DNA from: Mixia osmundae IAM 14324
Lineage: Eukaryota; Basidiomycota; Mixiomycetes; Mixiales; Mixiaceae
DNA: 64,000 nucleotides
Reading direction: 5' to 3'
NCBI RefSeq assembly: GCF_000708205.1
Contig: NW_014575562.1
Location: forward strand, 497,616 to 561,615
The notes under the pieces are model-generated. The model saw only the letters and a program-made list of their open reading frames with translations, was not told the DNA's origin and did not search any database. Of the stretch, positions 12,612 to 63,028 are shown one piece after another. The translations under genes and the position numbers were made by a program. Positions within the stretch are counted from its first letter, which is position 1, and every line of letters begins with the position of its first letter.

Positions 12612-13359
12612 CTACAATGCCACTGTGGCTTCGTCAGGCTCGTCCCATCGCAGCCATCGGCAGCCGATATCGTCGAGATGCTCGTCGTAGTCGTGCACAG
12701 TCTGATGCGCTGCCTCCTTGAGCCCTTGTAACGCTATTGCAGGCAGTTCAGGCGCGACCTTCAATGTAGGCGCTTTGCTCGTCCCTATCGCTCTTGTCTG
12801 CTCTCTATGAATCAGCGCCTCGTCAACAAGGCTGCGAGGAGGACATACGATGAAGCCGGTCTGGCTTGCTGCTGCTTGCTTTGCATCGAGCTACAGTCAC
12901 AGCACTCGTCAGTCAGCCGACGGCGCGTACGGACCGAGAACGAAGCACCATCAGAAGTAGCGGCGGCGTTTGTGATCGCTTGGCTAGATGCAACGCCGCT
13001 TGCTCTAGTACTGGCGGTATCGCATTGTCGTCCAAGCGCGCATTGGCATAGTAGAACCCGACGAGTTGCTGCTTGGGTATCAACGTCGAAAGATGTGTGT
13101 CGAGCTGCAAGACTCTAAGCGTTCAGCACATGACAGGGGCTGCAAGCTGGGTGCTGACTATTGCCAGAGCCGACTGTAGAGCCATCGTGAGGCCCGTCCA
13201 GTGATGCAGCAGAGGAATGGCGTCGATGATATCCTCTGATGAGCTTTGGCTTGCAGTGAGGGCGCCGATACAGCATGCGTGTGGCCACTTGGCCGTGTGA
13301 TAGAACGACCTCAGATAGCTCCTTCTGTGCAGCACGTAGCTCGACTCTGCCTCTGTCAT
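12612..13359 (-). CDS. ER membrane protein complex subunit 8/9
   Basis: Four exons (13359-13159, 13104-12949, 12890-12849, 12797-12612) give 194 residues. The family pattern is clear: HTAKWPHACCIGALTA, IIDAIPLLHHWTGLTMALQ, LVGFYYANARLDD, and the end VHDYDEHLDDIGCRW. EMC8/9 are inactive MPN-like cytosolic subunits of the insertase that places tail-anchored and multi-pass proteins in the ER. The MPN metal residues are absent, as expected for EMC8/9. The third exon is only 42 nt. The gene is convergent with EAF3 and divergent from TPS1 (104 bp between start codons). Confidence 0.9.
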
Positions 13360-13463
13360 CGTACCTGACACTCGACCTGACGGGTGACGTTGACTTGCTC
13401 GCGTCGTGTAGCGCTTAGCTGGCAGCCTCCTCCTGAGGACGCTCGAGTCTCTGCAAAGCAGCC

Positions 13464-15831
13464 ATGGCATCGCCTGAAGAGTCATCAGACGAGCGTATGG
13501 CCGGCTCCTCCCTCACAGATGACGAGAGCAGACCAGCACGCCCACACATCGCACTAGACGCAGCAGCTCGAGCAAGTCGACAGACAAGACGGTCTCAAAC
13601 GCCCAGCACGGCCACATCCTATCGTCCGGCTTCTAGCTTCGGCTATTCTCATCCTCCCATTCGTCCACAGCTTGGACCTGGTCTGGCCGGTACTTCACCG
13701 CCCCGCCCACGTTCACGTTTGGGCGGTTCATCAAAGAATGGACTGATTGAGATGGTCCCTGTGCCCGCTAGCGGAGCTTCCATGAACCGACAACCCGCAA
13801 AGACAATCAAAAAGGATCAGGATGGCCATGCGAAAGCGCCCAGTCTGACAAAACTGGACAACAATTCGAGGATCATCATCGTTTCCAATCGTTTGCCTGT
13901 CACGATCAGTCGCAAGGAAGACGGGACGTACGACTTTGCAATGAGCAGCGGTGGACTCGTCTCTGCTCTCTCTGGTTGCAAACGTCAGATGGCCTTTACC
14001 TGGATCGGCTGGCCTGGTGCGCAACCTTGCCTGCACCCGCGCCCTCTTTTCTGATGAGACGCGTCAGGGTTTGATCCGCCCGACGACGAGAAGGAAGAGC
14101 TCACTCGACGACTCATGGAAGAGTACTCCTGCAAGCCTGTCTTCATGTCGGCCGAAATCGCGGATCGGCATTACAACGGCTTCTCCAATTCCATCCTCTG
14201 GCCACTTTTTCACTACCGTGCGTTTGTTAGATGCGTCTTTGACATGTGCTCAAGGTCTTCGTCGTCGTCCACAGATCCAGCGGAGATCGTTTTTGACGAG
14301 CTGAACTGGCTTGCGTATCGTGAAGCCAACATGCTCTTTGCAGAGGCCGTCAGAAAGGAAGTCAGAGCGTCCGACATGGTATGGGTACAAGATTATCACC
14401 TCATGCTCCTGCCGATGATGCTACGCGTCACCATCGAAGGCCTCTCGAGTATGGGCGAATCGGCCGAGAAAGAGATGAAGAATCTCTATCGGGGCTTGCA
14501 GCGAACCGAGAGCAGAAAGCGAATCGCAACCCAGGGCGCAGGCACGAGCGATGGCGATACCACTCGAGGCAATATCAAGATTGGCTTCTTCCTTCACACT
14601 CCCTTTCCGAGTTCGGAAATCTACAGGTGCACTTCTTTCGATCGTCCAGAGACGCGGCTGATGCGCCCACAGGATCTTGCCGGTACGGCGAGAGATCTTG
14701 ATGGGTCTCTTGCATTGTGACCTCATCGGCTTCCACACCTACGACTATGCCCGTCATTTTCTGTCGAGTTGTACGCGCATTCTCGGCGTGCCCACCATGC
14801 CCAACGGTGAGCTTCTTTCACGAGTGAGAGAGGGCGAAGCTCATGTGGTCGCGCAGCTGTCGAATTCGATGACCGGTACGCCAACGTGGGCACCTTCCCC
14901 ATCGGCATCGATCCGGACACTTTTGTCGAGGTTGCTTCTCACCCTTGTCGCATGATCTCGGCTGACACATCGGTCAGGCGCTGGCTAAACCGAAAGTGTC
15001 GGATCGGATCGCTGCTCTCCGACATCGGTTCGAGGGCATCAAGATCATCGTTGGCGTGGACAGACTCGACTACATCAAAGGCGTGCCCCAGGTGCGCAGT
15101 AGATTTCATGGATTTTGAGCACGCTGACATGGTAACAGAAACTGCACGCCTTTGAGATCTTTCTCTCAGAGCATCCGGAATGGATTGGTAAGGTCGTTCT
15201 CGTTCAAGTCGCGGTACCCTCTCGAGGCGACGTCGAAGAGTATCAAACCTTACGCGCAATGGTCAATGAGCTCGTCGGACGTATCAACGGACGATTCGGA
15301 ACCGTCGAACATATGCCGATACATTTCATGCACCGGAGCGTCGACTTTGACGAGCTGTGCGCTCTCTATGCCATCTCTGATGCCGCTCTCATCACTTCTA
15401 CACGCGACGGCATGAACCTCGTACGTCTATGCGCTGCCTGGTAGAGACAAAGACTGAGACGGAGTCAGGTCTCATACGAGTATATCGCTTGTCAGAAGGG
15501 TCAGCACGGCGCGTTGATCCTATCAGAGTTTACGGGTGCTGCGCATTCTCTCAACGGATCCATCATCGTCAATCCTGTACGTACTTCGTCTCGTCTACCG
15601 ATGGCGATTGACAGTTCTGCAGTGGAACACAGCGGAAGTAGCGGACGGCATTCACAAAGCGTTGACGATGCCGCCCGCATTGCGCAAGGCGAACTACGAG
15701 AAGCTCTACAGCTACATCTCCAAATACACGGCCGCATAGTGAGTCTTTCTTGACTTGCCCTTTACCGTCACACTCAAGTGACGTGTAGCTGGGGACTCTC
15801 ATTCGCAAGTTGGTTGCAACATCAGGCCTAG
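13464..15831 (+). CDS. TPS1: Trehalose-6-phosphate synthase (GT20)
   Basis: Ten exons give 641 residues: 13464-14016, 14068-14217, 14275-14626, 14673-14806, 14857-14930, 14978-15091, 15139-15420, 15469-15576, 15623-15738, 15789-15831. A disordered extension of about 130 residues precedes the GT20 domain (IIIVSNRLPVTI). Landmarks are AEIADRHYNGFSNSILWPLF, WVQDYHLMLLP, GVDRLDYIKGVPQKLHAFE and TSTRDGMNLVSYEYIACQ. The enzyme joins UDP-glucose and glucose-6-phosphate to make trehalose-6-phosphate, a stress protectant precursor and glycolysis regulator. No TPS2-like phosphatase domain is attached. Fungal Tps1 is usually near 500 residues, so the amino-terminal extension is extra and of unknown role. 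Confidence 0.95.
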
Positions 15832-37301: not shown

Positions 37302-40004
37302 ATGGCATCAGGCAACGGCTGGGCACCTGATCCTTTCCCACGACCCTCGACGGATGAGCATGGCCAGCCACGCAAGGCGATGACGAGTTACGGACAGCCA
37401 AGATCAAAGACGGCGTCATGCAAAGAGTGCAAGCGATTGAAGCTCAAGTGCAGTCGAACATGGCCCTGCGCAGCTTGTGTCAAGCGAGGCTGCGGCCACC
37501 TCTGTCCAGATGGCGTGCTCAAGGAGTCCAGAAACAAGACGAAAGAGATCGCTCAGCTCACAGAGCGAGTGAAGCAGCTTGAAGCCGCCTTGCGACGGGC
37601 AGGTCTGGATCCTGCAACAGCGGTACAATCTCCAGCGGGGACTGCTCACCACTCTGTCTCGCCCGGAAGCAGTGGGACGAGTCAGCGGGCAGGCAGCGAT
37701 GCAGATCAGCAGCTCGCCCTCCTGACGCTTAAGGGCGAGGACGAAAGCACATTTCACGGCTTTAGCGCAGCAGGCTCGGCCTTCCTCGAAGATGCAGAGG
37801 CTTACGACGCCTACACGTCGTCATCTGAGGACCTGTCAGATACAGAAGCCCTGCCGCCTCGACAGCAACGTGCAGTCAACCATCCCAGCGCGTTTCCCCT
37901 TGCCGGCGGGTTCGAGATCAAATACCTGAGGTCACTACTGCCGCCTCGTGCACAAGGCGAGGCGTTTGTCAAGAGCTTCTTCGACAGAGTGGCCTGCTGT
38001 CTCATGCCTATGCGAGAAGATCATGCCTTTTCGACTTACGTCGTGCCGGCGTATGATGCCACCGAAGCCAATGCCGTCCATCCGCACCGTCTCGCGCTTC
38101 TCTTCGCCATTATGAGCATCGGCGCGCTCTTCATGCCCAACGCACGAGATCCGAGGCGTGACGCCCATCGATACCATTGTATCAGTCAAGCCTGTATCGC
38201 CTCGTCGCGCTTTATGACCCACACAACTCTCGCATCTGTTCTGACGCTCATGCTTAGCTCTCGATACTACCACTGTACGCACAGGAATCCAGCAGACCAT
38301 TCGTGGCCGATCGTTGGCCTTGCCGTCAGACTGTCATTGGCAATGGGCTTGCATCGTGATGGCAAGCTTTGGGGACTTGAGGGCGTAGAGCTCGAGCAGA
38401 GACGCGCGATGTGGTACGAATGTGCGTCATCTTGCTCATGGATGCCAGGATCGTCTCACAGATAGGGTCTAGGCATGTTCTTCGATCGAGCGCAAGCCTT
38501 ACTGCTCGGTCGACCTTACGCGATCGCCGATAGCCAATTCGATACATTGCCGCCGTCATTCGACTCGCTGGGAAGCTCGAGCCATATCGATTTCTTCCAG
38601 GCGAAATGCAAGCTGACAAAGTTTATGGGCAAAGTCGGCGACGAAGTCCACGGCGTCAACAATGCCACTTATGAGACTGTCACAGCGCTCTCCGCCGAAT
38701 GGCAGCAGCTCAAGTCGGAACTGCCCGAGACGCTGAGTCACGATGCCGTCTTTGAGTCGGCTATGCAGCAAGTAATCGCGCCGACTCGTGATCAGGCCAT
38801 ACAGCAGCATTTCACAACTGTCATGTATGCGGAGACACTTATCTCTCTTCACAAGAGCCACTTTGCTCAGGCCCTGCTCAACAATCCTGACGAGCCTCTT
38901 GAGAGCAAGTACGCCGCCTCGGTCGTCGCGGTCATCGTGACAGCCTGTCGTGACATCATCACGACTGTAAAATCGGCGCTTGATAGCTACGAAGCCCTCG
39001 CTTCGCGATTCATGTTCGCCTTTCATGTTTTCAACGCCGGCATCTGTCTCGCACTGTTGCTCATCAGATCGCCCGGGAGCCTCTTGGCACGGTTTGCGTG
39101 GGATCTCCTCTGTCTTGGCATCTCGAATCTTCTCAGAGAGGCGCCTCATGACATGCCGACCCGAGAATTCCTACCGCGGTTGCATAAACTGCGGTTGACC
39201 GCTCGTACCAAGCTGCAAGAGTATCAAGCTAATCGCGCATCGAGCGGGACATCTACGCCTTCTGCCTCTCACCTACAACCGATGAGCAGTTCTGACTCGA
39301 AGTCGGCACAAGAGGGCGACGAGGCAAAGTACCTTTCTCACGGACCCAAGCTTGCTCGCAAAGTCTCGTCGCCGCATCATCTGCAGAGTCAACATGGTGG
39401 TCAACGATCGGGTACTGGCTCGCCTGCTCGGCTTGCCTACTCTGCCTCGGTTTCTGCCGACAACAATGAAGCAGAATACAAGGAGATCTCTGACAGCTTC
39501 GCAGCGCTATCGAGCCACAAGAGCTTACTGGGCATAGATCAGTCGATCTTGGAGAAGCTCTTTCGAGCAGATCCGACGATATTAGCCCGGCCTACGTTCC
39601 GCCCGGCTCTTGATTCGAGTCCCGTCGAGATCTTGCCGGAGGTCCCTGAGCCCATTGTCTCGGCGAGTGATGAGCTCGCAGGCAATGACTTTGCACCTCC
39701 GGACGCTCCTTCATGGCGCGACCCCTTCGATACATCTGGCTTCGCGACAAGTCTACCGGCTGCTCCCGAGATAGATGAGAGCTACTTCAACTTTGCAAGC
39801 TACGATCAGCCTTCGAATGCTGAATCTGGCATCGGCAAAGGCCAGTTCGATCTGGACAGCCTCATGGCGCTGCTAGATGATCCCGCTGCGGCTAACACTC
39901 AGACCGGCATGCAAGGCGTGGAAGTTCCGTTTGCGCACGTCAGACAGGACTCGCGGACACGCTCCAATGCTTTCGATGATATCCTGCGCAGTATTGCTTC
40001 TTAG
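37302..40004 (+). CDS. Zn2Cys6 transcription factor with fungal-specific middle domain
   Basis: Two exons (37302-38421, 38473-40004) give 883 residues. The zinc cluster is CKECKRLKLKCSRTWPCAAC followed by VKRGCGHLC (Cys40, 43, 50, 56, 59, 68). A short coiled coil follows (IAQLTERVKQLEAALRRA). The fungal_trans domain spans about residues 200-560: FKI-like FEIKYLRSLLPP, LLFAIMSIGALF, then VGLAVRLSLAMGLHRDG and WYECMFFDRAQALLLGRPY across the junction. The rest is Ser/Pro-rich with an acidic end. Regulators of this kind bind CGG-type repeats; the regulated pathway cannot be told from sequence. It is not next to an obvious biosynthetic cluster. Confidence 0.9.
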
Positions 40005-47562: not shown

Positions 47563-50500
47563 ATGTCAGGCAGTGCCCCGCCTGCGCCAGCAGTGAGTTT
47601 CAGTCTCATATCTATCTAGAGCCACTAGTCTGACCCCGAACCGTCGACAGTGGCGGCACTTCGCTTTCTTCGACGCTACGCCCGTCAAGGACGCTCAAGA
47701 CCTTGCGCAGACCCCGGAAGCCTTTAGGGTACGCTCGAAATGTCAACGCGAAAGGAACGGTACTCAAGTCTTGGCTTCAGGACGCAGGAAGGATTGCAGC
47801 AGTTGCATCCGGACAGAGCACCGTCGTTCTCGCGGATCATCAGGGCTCACTGCACTGCCTGTCGCCCGACTTTGAGGAGCTACAGGCTTGGGTAGCCTAT
47901 GATGGCGGCAGAGCGCTCCTCGTCAAAGTCAGCGGCGTCAAGGGTATCATAGTCAGCTTGGGCGTACGTCTCTGAAGCTCGCAGACATGCTCAGGCTCAT
48001 GATAGCTTTGCAGGAGGATGCCAGTCAGACACTCGTCCTCAAGGTCTGGGACATCAGACATCTCGAAAAAACCTCTGGCAATCCTCGTCTGCTCGGTCAG
48101 GCTCGTGTACAGCAGGGACAGCGACCCCATCCTGTAGGCGCGCTTCCTGCACGCTCCTGAAGATCACTGACCATCTCGCAGGCGACCGTACTCAGCCTCA
48201 CGTCATCCCTTTCACACATTGCCGCTGGTTTTGCAGATGGATCCGTGCTCTTCTGGCGTAATGTTGATCAGGCCCTGTCCAGCCACGCTGCATCAGACAA
48301 TGCTGCGACCGTCACGCTCGCCAAACCCAAGGCAGTGCCGTCTTTCTCGTCTGAGCCCATCACAGGCCTCGAATTCTGGACATCGGCAGCGCAACAGCAA
48401 GCTCTATGGATCGTGACGACCAGCAAGGTCTGGTCGTATACGTTGACAGGCAAAGCGAGTGGCAATGCGCCTACGATCACAGATGAGCTGGGCGCACCTT
48501 TGCGATGTGTGGCGTCGATGCCCAACGGCGATATGGTACTGGCCCGCAGTGAGGCTCTGTACGTGTACGGAAGCGAAGGAAGAGGCGCATGCTTTGCGTA
48601 CGAAGGTCCCAAAACCCTGATAGCATCTCATGGCTCGTACATCGTCATTGTCTCACCTCCCCAATCGCCTAGTGCAGCTTCTGCATCACCCACAGTGCGT
48701 AGATACGTCAATAACCGAAACGGAAAGGTTCTAGCCGACGTCTCGAGGATAACACTCTTTGATCCGGAAAACAAGCTCGTTGCGTTCAGCGATACGATCG
48801 AGTCGACTATCACTCAGGTCGTCTCGGAATGGGGCGACATCTTTCTCGTCCTACTGGACGGTCGGCTGATACGGCTTGAAGAACGCTCAATGGATCACAA
48901 GCTCAACGCGCTGTACAGCAAGAACCTGTACCTGCTCGCACTCGGCATGGCAAAGTCAAAGAACGCAAGCATAGCGGAATCCTCGATCATACACAAGCGA
49001 TATGGCGACTACTTGTATTCAAAGGGCGATTTTGATGGAGCTATGCATCAGTTCATTCAAACAATTGGTCATTTGCAACCGAGCTATGTCATTCGCAAGG
49101 CAAGTTTCCTTGTCTCCCGTTTGCCGCCGTGCTGATACTCGTAATACAGTTCCTCGATGCGCAGCGCATATATACCCTTTCACTTTACTTGCAGGAGCTA
49201 CACGCCCAACAGCTCGCCGGTTCAGACGTCACTACGCTTCTAATCAATTGTTACACCAAACTGAAAGACGTCGAACGACTAGACGCGTTCCTCAAAGCCG
49301 ATGGACCTGGACACAGCAATACTGGAGAGCTACATTTCGATCTCGAAACAGCTATCCGCGTCTGTCGACAAGCCGGCTACCACGAACATGCACTCTACTT
49401 GGCGAAAAGATACCAAGAGCATGAGGAATACCTCCGAATACAGATCGAAGATCGTCACGATTGGACAGATGCTGTGCATTACATCCGTTCGCTTGGTGTG
49501 GCCGGTGCAGAGCCTGCGCTCAGGCAATACGGACCTGCTTTGCTTGCCAACGCGCCCACCGAGACGACTCGCATTCTTATCGATCTTTGCTGTGGCACAT
49601 TCGAGCAACCTAGTGAGGAGGCCCAGCAAGTGATGAGTCCTGTTGCTGCAAACGAAGCAGGACCCTCGTACATGTCTTACCTGTCACTCGGCGGCAAGCC
49701 AGCAAGCGTAGCCAAGTCGACAGATGCGCTAGATTCGCCCCGGTTGGCGCCCGAGCGTGCTCGAAAACCGGAACGAACGGCGACGAATCGGACAGTACGC
49801 GAATCCAGTCCGGTTCTTCCGAAATCAATCGATCTCCCGTCCCCTCGCCAGTTCTTTGCCTTCTTCATTGATCATCCCGAAGAGTTTGTGACTTTTCTGG
49901 AAGCCATTGCCGCGCAACGTTGGCAGCAAACTCTAGACGACGCGACGGACACCTCACGGGAGACAACGATGCTCGAGCGAGCAGAACAGCAAGCGATATG
50001 GAATACGCTGCTCGAGCTCTACCTGACCCTGAAGGGTCTGAAGAGCGAGGGCACGCCGAGCAAGGCTGCTCGATCTCAGGCGCGCGAGTACGAAGACAGG
50101 GCGATGAAAGTGCTGCGATCTGTCGATATACCGTATACGATCAATCAAGCGCTGATTGTCTGTACAGTTCGACAGTTCGTACCTGGCCTCATGCTACTCT
50201 ACGAAAAGCTGGGCATGTTTGAAGATATCCTACGCTTCCATATCGACAGGGCGCGCTCGGCGCCTTCTTCCTCTAGCCTAGCTACCGACTCTGCACGTCA
50301 CGTCGTGCAAGCCTTAGACAAGTATGGCGAAGGACGACCAGAGCTGTATCCGATAGTCTTGCGATTCCTCGTCTCGGACGCTCAGATCTTGACGCGGCAC
50401 CAGCAAGATCTCGCTCGGTTGCTGACTTACATCGAGGAAAACAAGATTATGGCGCCTATCTCGGTCATCGACTGCCTGTCTCAGACTGAGCATGCGAGTA

Positions 50501-62328: not shown

Positions 62329-62333
62329 AAAAA
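62329..62333 (-). terminator. Pol III terminator of tRNA-Ser
   Basis: A run of five Ts on the minus strand starts seven bases after the discriminator base, as expected for RNA polymerase III termination. Confidence 0.8.
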
Positions 62334-62339
62334 TGGTCT

Positions 62340-62471
62340 CGAACAGAAAGTGATTCGAACACTTGCTCCCGAAGGAACTGCCTTAGCAGGGCAGCCTATG
62401 TATGGTCGTCAGCAGGAATTCGGGTGAAAATTTCAGCATAGCTCACGCGTTAACCACTCCGCCATCTGTCC
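62340..62471 (-). tRNA. tRNA-Ser (GCU) with a 51-nt insertion after the D arm
   Basis: The 5' acceptor strand GGACAGA (62471-62465) pairs with TCTGTTC (62347-62341), with discriminator G at 62340. The D arm is GCG...CGC with an A-box-like TGGCGGAGTGG. The anticodon arm CTGCC-CTGCTAA-GGCAG gives anticodon GCT. A Ser-type variable arm (TCC-TTCG-GGA) and the T arm AAGTG-TTCGAAT-CACTT follow. The parts make a perfect 81-nt tRNA-Ser only if 62396-62446 is removed. That segment sits between positions 25 and 26, not at the usual 37/38 site. Five Ts (62333-62329) follow as a Pol III terminator. Confidence 0.92.
62396..62446 (-). other. Pre-mRNA-like intron inside tRNA-Ser(GCU)
   Basis: The 51-nt segment begins GTGAGC and ends CATAG. 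It carries GCTGAC with its A 14 nt from the 3' end. These are the same donor, branch-like and acceptor patterns, and the same length, as the protein-gene introns in this window. It is not at the position cut by the tRNA splicing endonuclease. That it is removed by the spliceosome is inference. Confidence 0.65.
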
Positions 62472-62931: not shown

Positions 62932-63028
62932 GCCTTGGTAGCTCACGTTGGAAGAGCGTCAGACTCTTAGCAGCCACTCACAGGGACTTGTTATCTGAAG
63001 GCACCGGGATCGTTGCCCGGCCAGGGCT
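62932..63028 (+). tRNA. tRNA-Lys (CUU) with 23-nt canonical intron and odd T loop
   Basis: Acceptor GCCTTGG pairs with CCAGGGC (one G-U). The D arm is GCTC...GAGC. The anticodon stem TCAGA/TCTGA encloses a loop CTCTTA-A interrupted after position 37 by 23 nt (63-nt-scale pieces at 62970-62992), the normal eukaryotic intron site. Anticodon is CTT. The T stem CCGGG/CCCGG is sound, but the loop reads ATCGTTG instead of TTCGA-type, and the discriminator is T. A run of six Ts follows at 63032. It may be functional with an altered T loop, or a decaying copy. Confidence 0.75.

Follow-up and report, generated by a model that had tools for sequence, protein, structure and literature searches.

The small fern-parasitic basidiomycete Mixia osmundae IAM 14324 (Pucciniomycotina) carries a tRNA-Ser(GCU) gene, the only one found, that is very probably a working nuclear gene with a spliceosomal intron between tRNA positions 25 and 26. 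Four more tRNA genes of this genome, those for Arg(UCU), Leu(UAA), Pro(AGG) and Lys(UUU), are interrupted as well, and the best reading of the five inserts, judged from the DNA, is that they are spliceosomal introns in tRNA genes that would be transcribed by Pol III and be functional. Directly visible are the complementarity of the exons, the splice signals, a match in length to mRNA introns, a single copy within the searches made, and the promoter and terminator context. In the proposed pathway, an upstream TATA element together with the intact internal boxes (A and B) would direct Pol III transcription of Ser(GCU) as far as a T run, the spliceosome would recognize GUGAGC, the GCUGAC branch site and CAUAG and join the exons, like those of U6 in fission yeast, and a functional Ser(GCU) tRNA would result; at least the Arg-UCU, Leu-UAA, Pro-AGG and Lys-UUU tRNAs would apparently be matured likewise. 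Removal by the spliceosome would account at once for the termini, branch sites, lengths and varied positions of the inserts.

The interrupted tRNA-Ser(GCU) gene

The gene lies in the window, i.e. the whole 64-kb stretch of DNA that was analysed, and comprises the following features, with A and B box positions taken from the available text of PMC3978253.

62500..62507, (-) strand: TATA-like element TATATTAT, 36 nt upstream of the gene (motif search)
62340..62471, (-) strand: interrupted tRNA-Ser(GCU) gene (Rfam RF00005, 37.2 bits; ARAGORN on the exon-joined form)
62447..62471, (-) strand: exon 1, with the acceptor 5' strand, positions 8-9 and the D arm (tRNA positions 1-25; sequence and cloverleaf)
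62453..62464, (-) strand: A box (positions 8-19), uninterrupted in the sequence
62396..62446, (-) strand: putative mRNA-type intron, 51 nt, at tRNA positions 25/26 (blind best-cut test; comparison with mRNA-intron signals)
62441..62446, (-) strand: putative 5' splice site GTGAGC (5.8% of the window's GTs reach its score with the mRNA donor weights)
62408..62413, (-) strand: branch-like site GCTGAC, 13 nt from its A to the 3' end of the insert (13-14 nt is commonest in predicted mRNA introns)
62396..62400, (-) strand: putative 3' splice site CATAG (sequence)
62340..62395, (-) strand: exon 2, with position 26, the anticodon arm, variable arm, T arm, acceptor 3' strand and discriminator (sequence and cloverleaf)
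62385..62387, (-) strand: anticodon GCT in the loop CTGCTAA (cloverleaf)
62351..62361, (-) strand: B box (positions 52-62), uninterrupted in the sequence
62329..62333, (-) strand: T5 run, resembling a Pol III terminator, starting 7 nt downstream of the gene (sequence)

When its exons are joined, the gene is read by ARAGORN as a regular 81-nt tRNA-Ser(gct) with a full cloverleaf and a long variable arm. The first-pass annotation had located both the gene and its 51-nt insert correctly, as the sequence and the cloverleaf after exon joining confirm, and had rightly described the A and B boxes as intact; its statement that every arm is perfect holds in that all stems are paired, but one acceptor pair is G-T. 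In an Rfam scan of the short stretch, RF00005 matches the entire 132 nt of the gene with 37.2 bits (cut-off 29), whereas the gene went unreported when the entire window was scanned with Rfam defaults and when ARAGORN was run without introns. With introns allowed, ARAGORN misread the gene in its unspliced form, calling it Leu(AAG) and putting the intron in the wrong place; tRNA finders can therefore miss or misname such genes, and others may hide in fungal genomes.

Four further interrupted genes and the placement of the inserts

The first-pass annotation had proposed looking for other tRNA genes with inserts away from positions 37/38. Searches of the assembly (13,508,641 bases in 19 contigs) brought four to light, each with a single BLAST match.

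L024: tRNA-Arg(UCU), 51-nt insert at positions 53/54 (RF00005 family search, 43.4 bits; unreadable by ARAGORN)
L027: tRNA-Lys(UUU), 55-nt insert at positions 60/61 (RF00005 family search, 27.6 bits, below the Rfam cut-off; unreadable by ARAGORN)
L062: tRNA-Leu(UAA), 51-nt insert at positions 22/23 (scanner for T arm, acceptor stem and D-arm signature)
L047: tRNA-Pro(AGG), 49-nt insert at positions 52/53, plus a 12-nt 37/38 intron (GY..YAG removal scan)

The RF00005 family search gave at least 19 places, with 63 of 180 candidates scored and the Ser(GCU) gene not among them. Rfam itself places the Arg(UCU) insert, since in its alignment the T loop spans 58 positions instead of 7; in that scan, at E 0.01, the Arg locus was reported and the Lys, Leu and Pro loci were not. 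In the removal scan, each GY..YAG stretch of 40-75 nt was deleted and the remainder run through ARAGORN, which added Pro(AGG) and also recovered the Arg, Lys and Leu genes. Within the 64-kb window it restored Ser(GCU) alone (2,665 constructs); at the loci there were 10 hits among 9,533 constructs. Matches at L010, L019 and L068, which merely swap one end of an already complete tRNA, were discarded, as was a second reading at L047 that is poorer than the 49-nt reading of Pro(AGG). The same scan restored no tRNA in first-order Markov controls modelled on the window and most of the loci (three sets of 273 kb, 13,325-13,480 constructs each). Ser and Arg are the firmest of the interrupted genes, and Pro, Leu and Lys each have one blemish or more: a weak D stem in Pro(AGG), a C31-U39 mismatch in Leu(UAA), and an A-C mismatch in the acceptor stem of Lys(UUU). 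None of the inserts in the five tRNAs sits at 37/38, their positions being 25/26, 22/23, 53/54, 52/53 and 60/61. They share no match longer than 8 nt, and BLAST with each gene including its insert found no copy elsewhere in the assembly, so that no introner-like family is seen.

The borders were assessed with a blind cut test, in which every cut of 35-75 nt was scored by tRNA quality alone (1,551-2,235 cuts per gene). The top-scoring class includes a GU/GC..AG cut in Ser (two equivalent placements), Arg (three), Lys (one, unique) and Pro (four), and in Leu the splice-site cut falls 0.5 under the best score. An ARAGORN check over 48 border classes, in which an edge rule left Lys outside the GY..YAG class, also 'restored' tRNAs with other classes, mostly the same five genes through inexact nearby cuts and in some instances spuriously; other classes were called because ARAGORN tolerates inexact cuts, and ARAGORN alone thus does not fix the borders. 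A joint pattern composed after the inserts were seen (donor GTRNGY or GCAAGT, 3' YAG, and YTNAY in the branch interval) occurs in all five tRNA inserts and in 6 of 127,880 random 51-mers of the window (10 at a length of 49 nt and 2 at 55 nt); donor and YAG together occur in 20 of the 127,880. Assembly error was rejected as the source of the inserts, as it would not yield splice signals, and self-splicing was set aside, since a self-splicing intron needs more than 51 nt.

Intron signals, transcription context and the tRNA set

For comparison, mRNA introns of the window were predicted from coding potential and self-trained splice-site weights, with length left free between 35 and 130 nt. Two settings gave 47 and 32 introns, and the 47-intron set was used; a first prediction from coding potential alone (103 introns) was dropped as noisy, and an iteration with a lax intron penalty was dropped after running away to 477 'introns'. 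Thirty-four of the 47 introns are 40-62 nt long, with a median of 51 nt once the 13 outside this range are left out, in agreement with the first-pass claim that the Ser(GCU) insert has the modal length of mRNA introns in this genome. The range of 49-55 nt holds 19 of these 34 core introns (the same 19 of all 47), and the tRNA inserts measure 49, 51, 51, 51 and 55 nt. For one mRNA intron, GTGCGT..TCTAG near 38422, a length of 51 nt is established by the protein L969DRAFT_303565, whose 883 residues the window encodes completely in two exactly matching stretches.

The tRNA inserts start with GUGAGC (two), GUACGU (one) or GCAAGU (two, in Arg and Leu), and all end in YAG (CATAG, TCCAG, CACAG, TGCAG and GATAG); the donor pattern fits 23 of the 34 core mRNA introns. 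Each insert has a branch-like YUNAY with 11-16 nt from its A to the end, counted by the same convention as in the mRNA introns, where CTNAY most commonly lies 13-14 nt from the 3' end (13 of 42 matches, with 24 of the 42 at 10-16 nt and no match in four of the 34 introns). Within the branch interval, YTNAY is present in all five inserts, in 25 of the 34 core mRNA introns, and in 9.2% of random 51-mers. In donor, 3' YAG, branch distance and length, the inserts all have the properties of a spliceosomal (U2-type) intron. The spliceosomal reading that had been proposed for the Ser insert is strengthened by the four additional genes, with their similar lengths and signals. As a separate observation, a single predicted mRNA intron, in the 32-intron setting only, has GCAAGT as its donor and so parallels the inserts of Arg(UCU) and Leu(UAA): a 50-nt GC-AG intron of a VPS11-like gene (window 49100-49149, (+) strand) with a CTGATAC branch-like site.

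The transcription context was compared with that of 24 other tRNA genes (loci L009-L026, L030, L054, L060, L068, L093 and L104, and the window gene at 62932-63028). A TATA-like motif stands no more than 70 nt upstream of 19 of these 24, in 18 of them at -27 to -46, against a background of 7.5% of 45-mers, which suggests that Pol III transcription in Mixia is TATA-dependent. Among the interrupted genes, Ser, Leu and Arg have the element between -30 and -46, the Lys motif is at -65, and none was found upstream of Pro(AGG) by the pattern used. A run of four or more Ts starts within 10 nt downstream of all five interrupted genes and of 18 of the 24 others. TTTT also occurs inside two of the five inserts (Ser and Leu), and since several Mixia 37/38 introns contain it too, T4 alone is probably no Pol III stop in Mixia. 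The Ser and Leu inserts lie between the A and B boxes, the 3' AG of the intron rebuilds the start of the B box in Arg (53/54) and Pro (52/53), and the final B-box letters are altered in Lys; the inserts thus appear to leave the internal Pol III promoter largely intact. The neighbouring gene in the window, a tRNA-Lys(CUU) at 62932-63028 on the (+) strand, is divergent from the Ser(GCU) gene at a distance of about 460 bp; its 37/38 intron measures 23 nt, and a TATATA of its own stands at about -29.

The tRNA census stands at 29 genes and lacks, for example, Asn, Cys, His, Ile, Phe, Val and Ser-UGA. Behind it is a B-box pattern search with 72 overlapping entries, inspected at all but about 21 places; in a second B-box search all 34 entries were inspected (30 loci and 4 more) and contained few tRNAs. 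Among a further 9 candidate places, 4 of them inspected, 2 are known tRNAs and 2 more (L106 and L107) are without an ARAGORN tRNA; among another 17, the 3 that were assigned are known tRNA genes. Within the 24 other genes, CAT is represented by two genes and every other anticodon found by one. So far as this incomplete census reaches, the Mixia tRNA set is apparently intron-rich and minimal. Across the whole assembly, the B-box pattern GGTTCRANYCC occurs 34 times, compared with 85 times for the pattern read backwards, a scarcity that may mean that this compact genome avoids stray Pol III promoters.

An uninterrupted Ser(GCU) gene, which the first-pass annotation had also suggested looking for, was not found in the 13.5-Mb assembly, nor was any second Ser(GCU) gene, in lower-bound searches with the anticodon-arm 18-mer, a loop/B-box pattern and BLAST. 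With up to three mismatches the 18-mer occurs at 13 places, but without mismatch only at the Ser(GCU) gene, the next best having two; the GCU loop with B box occurs at two places, the Ser(GCU) gene and one without an ARAGORN tRNA; and BLAST with the gene returned the self match only. With an incomplete census and searches that set lower bounds, a second Ser(GCU) copy could have been missed, for instance one whose 37/38 intron or unusual B box the pattern would not catch. In the predicted coding sequence of the window (15,103 codons), AGC is used 361 times and AGT 149 times, so that a Ser(GCU) tRNA is needed; the corresponding counts are 135 for AGA, 177 for AAA, 242 for CCT, 215 for CCC and 26 for TTA.

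Alternative explanations, known parallels and significance

It is improbable that the tRNA endonuclease cuts these ectopic inserts and tRNA ligase seals the exons, as proposed for Cyanidioschyzon merolae. The enzyme is presumably present in Mixia, as 21 of the 24 other tRNA genes found have 37/38 introns, and ectopic introns in the D and T arms are known from C. merolae and the Guillardia theta nucleomorph, many of the latter without a defined bulge-helix-bulge (BHB) in the available text of PMC3978253 and PMC4090602. However, the Mixia 37/38 introns form a shorter set (9-28 nt, one of 22 or 35), and endonuclease cleavage leaves unexplained the GU/GC starts, the YAG ends, the branch site at the mRNA distance and the mRNA-intron length. 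The endonuclease route depends on position 37/38 or on a BHB. A BHB at the insert borders, which the first-pass annotation had named as contrary evidence, was looked for at all equivalent placements in the five genes, and none goes beyond shuffled controls: at best, 3 of the 4 central-helix positions pair in Arg and 2 of 4 in each of the other genes, and shuffled inserts do as well or better in 11% (Arg) to 86% (Lys) of cases. As many Guillardia ectopic introns also have no defined motif (PMC3978253, available text), an absent BHB is in itself compatible with the endonuclease. The inserts differ from canonical 37/38 introns in position and length, and the two kinds coexist in Pro(AGG). Four of the five interrupted genes have no 37/38 intron, versus 3 of the 24 others (Fisher p = 0.0067), a negative association that may be an artefact, as detection is harder when a gene has both kinds.

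Decay offers a very unlikely account, according to which the interrupted copies are dead and intact genes with the same anticodons were missed or unassembled. The incomplete census, the lower-bound nature of the searches and a possibly incomplete assembly speak for it, but BLAST and the pattern searches returned no second copy, and five exact, signal-bearing inserts in genes with largely intact stems, T runs and mostly a TATA element are not a product of decay. Chance, in the sense of a tRNA-like match broken by unrelated intron-resembling sequence, would draw on the freedom of the borders (1-4 equivalent placements per gene); it is scarcely credible given the full cloverleaf, GCU anticodon and long variable arm of Ser, the Rfam scores of 37.2 (Ser) and 43.4 bits (Arg), the failure of the Markov controls to restore any tRNA, and the number of cases, five.

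The interpretation as spliceosomal introns joins two components that are each known, and what is new is their combination, in several tRNAs of one genome. In the literature covered, open-licence PMC papers, no spliceosomal intron in a nuclear tRNA gene is reported; the available text of PMC2586383, PMC6726248, PMC3978253, PMC11782384, PMC4090602, PMC4494063, PMC6461891, PMC13149111, PMC9602550 and PMC10484740 contains none, and tRNA splicing is still described as spliceosome-independent in the available part of a 2026 review (PMC13149111). The first-pass statement that known nuclear tRNA introns sit at 37/38 was too narrow, as the accessible portions of PMC4090602, PMC3978253 and PMC9602550 describe ectopic introns in the nucleus of the red alga C. 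merolae and in the nucleomorph of G. theta. Like the Mixia inserts, these lie in D and T arms and affect several genes per genome. The C. merolae introns are, however, attributed to BHB recognition by the endonuclease, whereas the Mixia inserts have no BHB beyond chance; the Guillardia introns are 3-24 nt long, whereas those of Mixia have GU/GC..AG ends, a branch site and the length of mRNA introns.

A second parallel had been drawn to U6 snRNA introns of some yeasts, including Rhodotorula relatives. It is documented for fission yeast, whose U6 snRNA has an mRNA-type intron near the catalytic nucleotides for which reverse splicing is suggested (PMC10484740, available text), but for Rhodotorula the evidence is the title of a work on a Rhodotorula hasegawae U2 intron, among the references in the accessible part of PMC2586383. 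These cases resemble the present one in that a spliceosomal intron resides in a small non-coding RNA gene, U6 being a Pol III transcript, and Mixia belongs to the Pucciniomycotina. They differ in that tRNAs are not parts of the spliceosome and that Mixia has five inserts with no sequence in common in five tRNAs, while the Rfam model aligns along its entire length with the U6 of Mixia (109 nt), which thus appears uninterrupted.

It is likely that a sizeable share of the essential tRNA set, at least the decoders of AGY-Ser, AGA-Arg, UUA-Leu, CCU/CCC-Pro and AAA-Lys, each found once, depends on the spliceosome, so that spliceosome activity would gate decoding, with inserts placed where the internal promoter is largely spared. 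If true, this would break the rule that tRNA splicing is independent of the spliceosome, it would mean that the spliceosome can act on Pol III transcripts as short as these, with tRNA exon parts of 13 to about 63 nt, and it would make Mixia a natural test of intron entry into non-coding genes.
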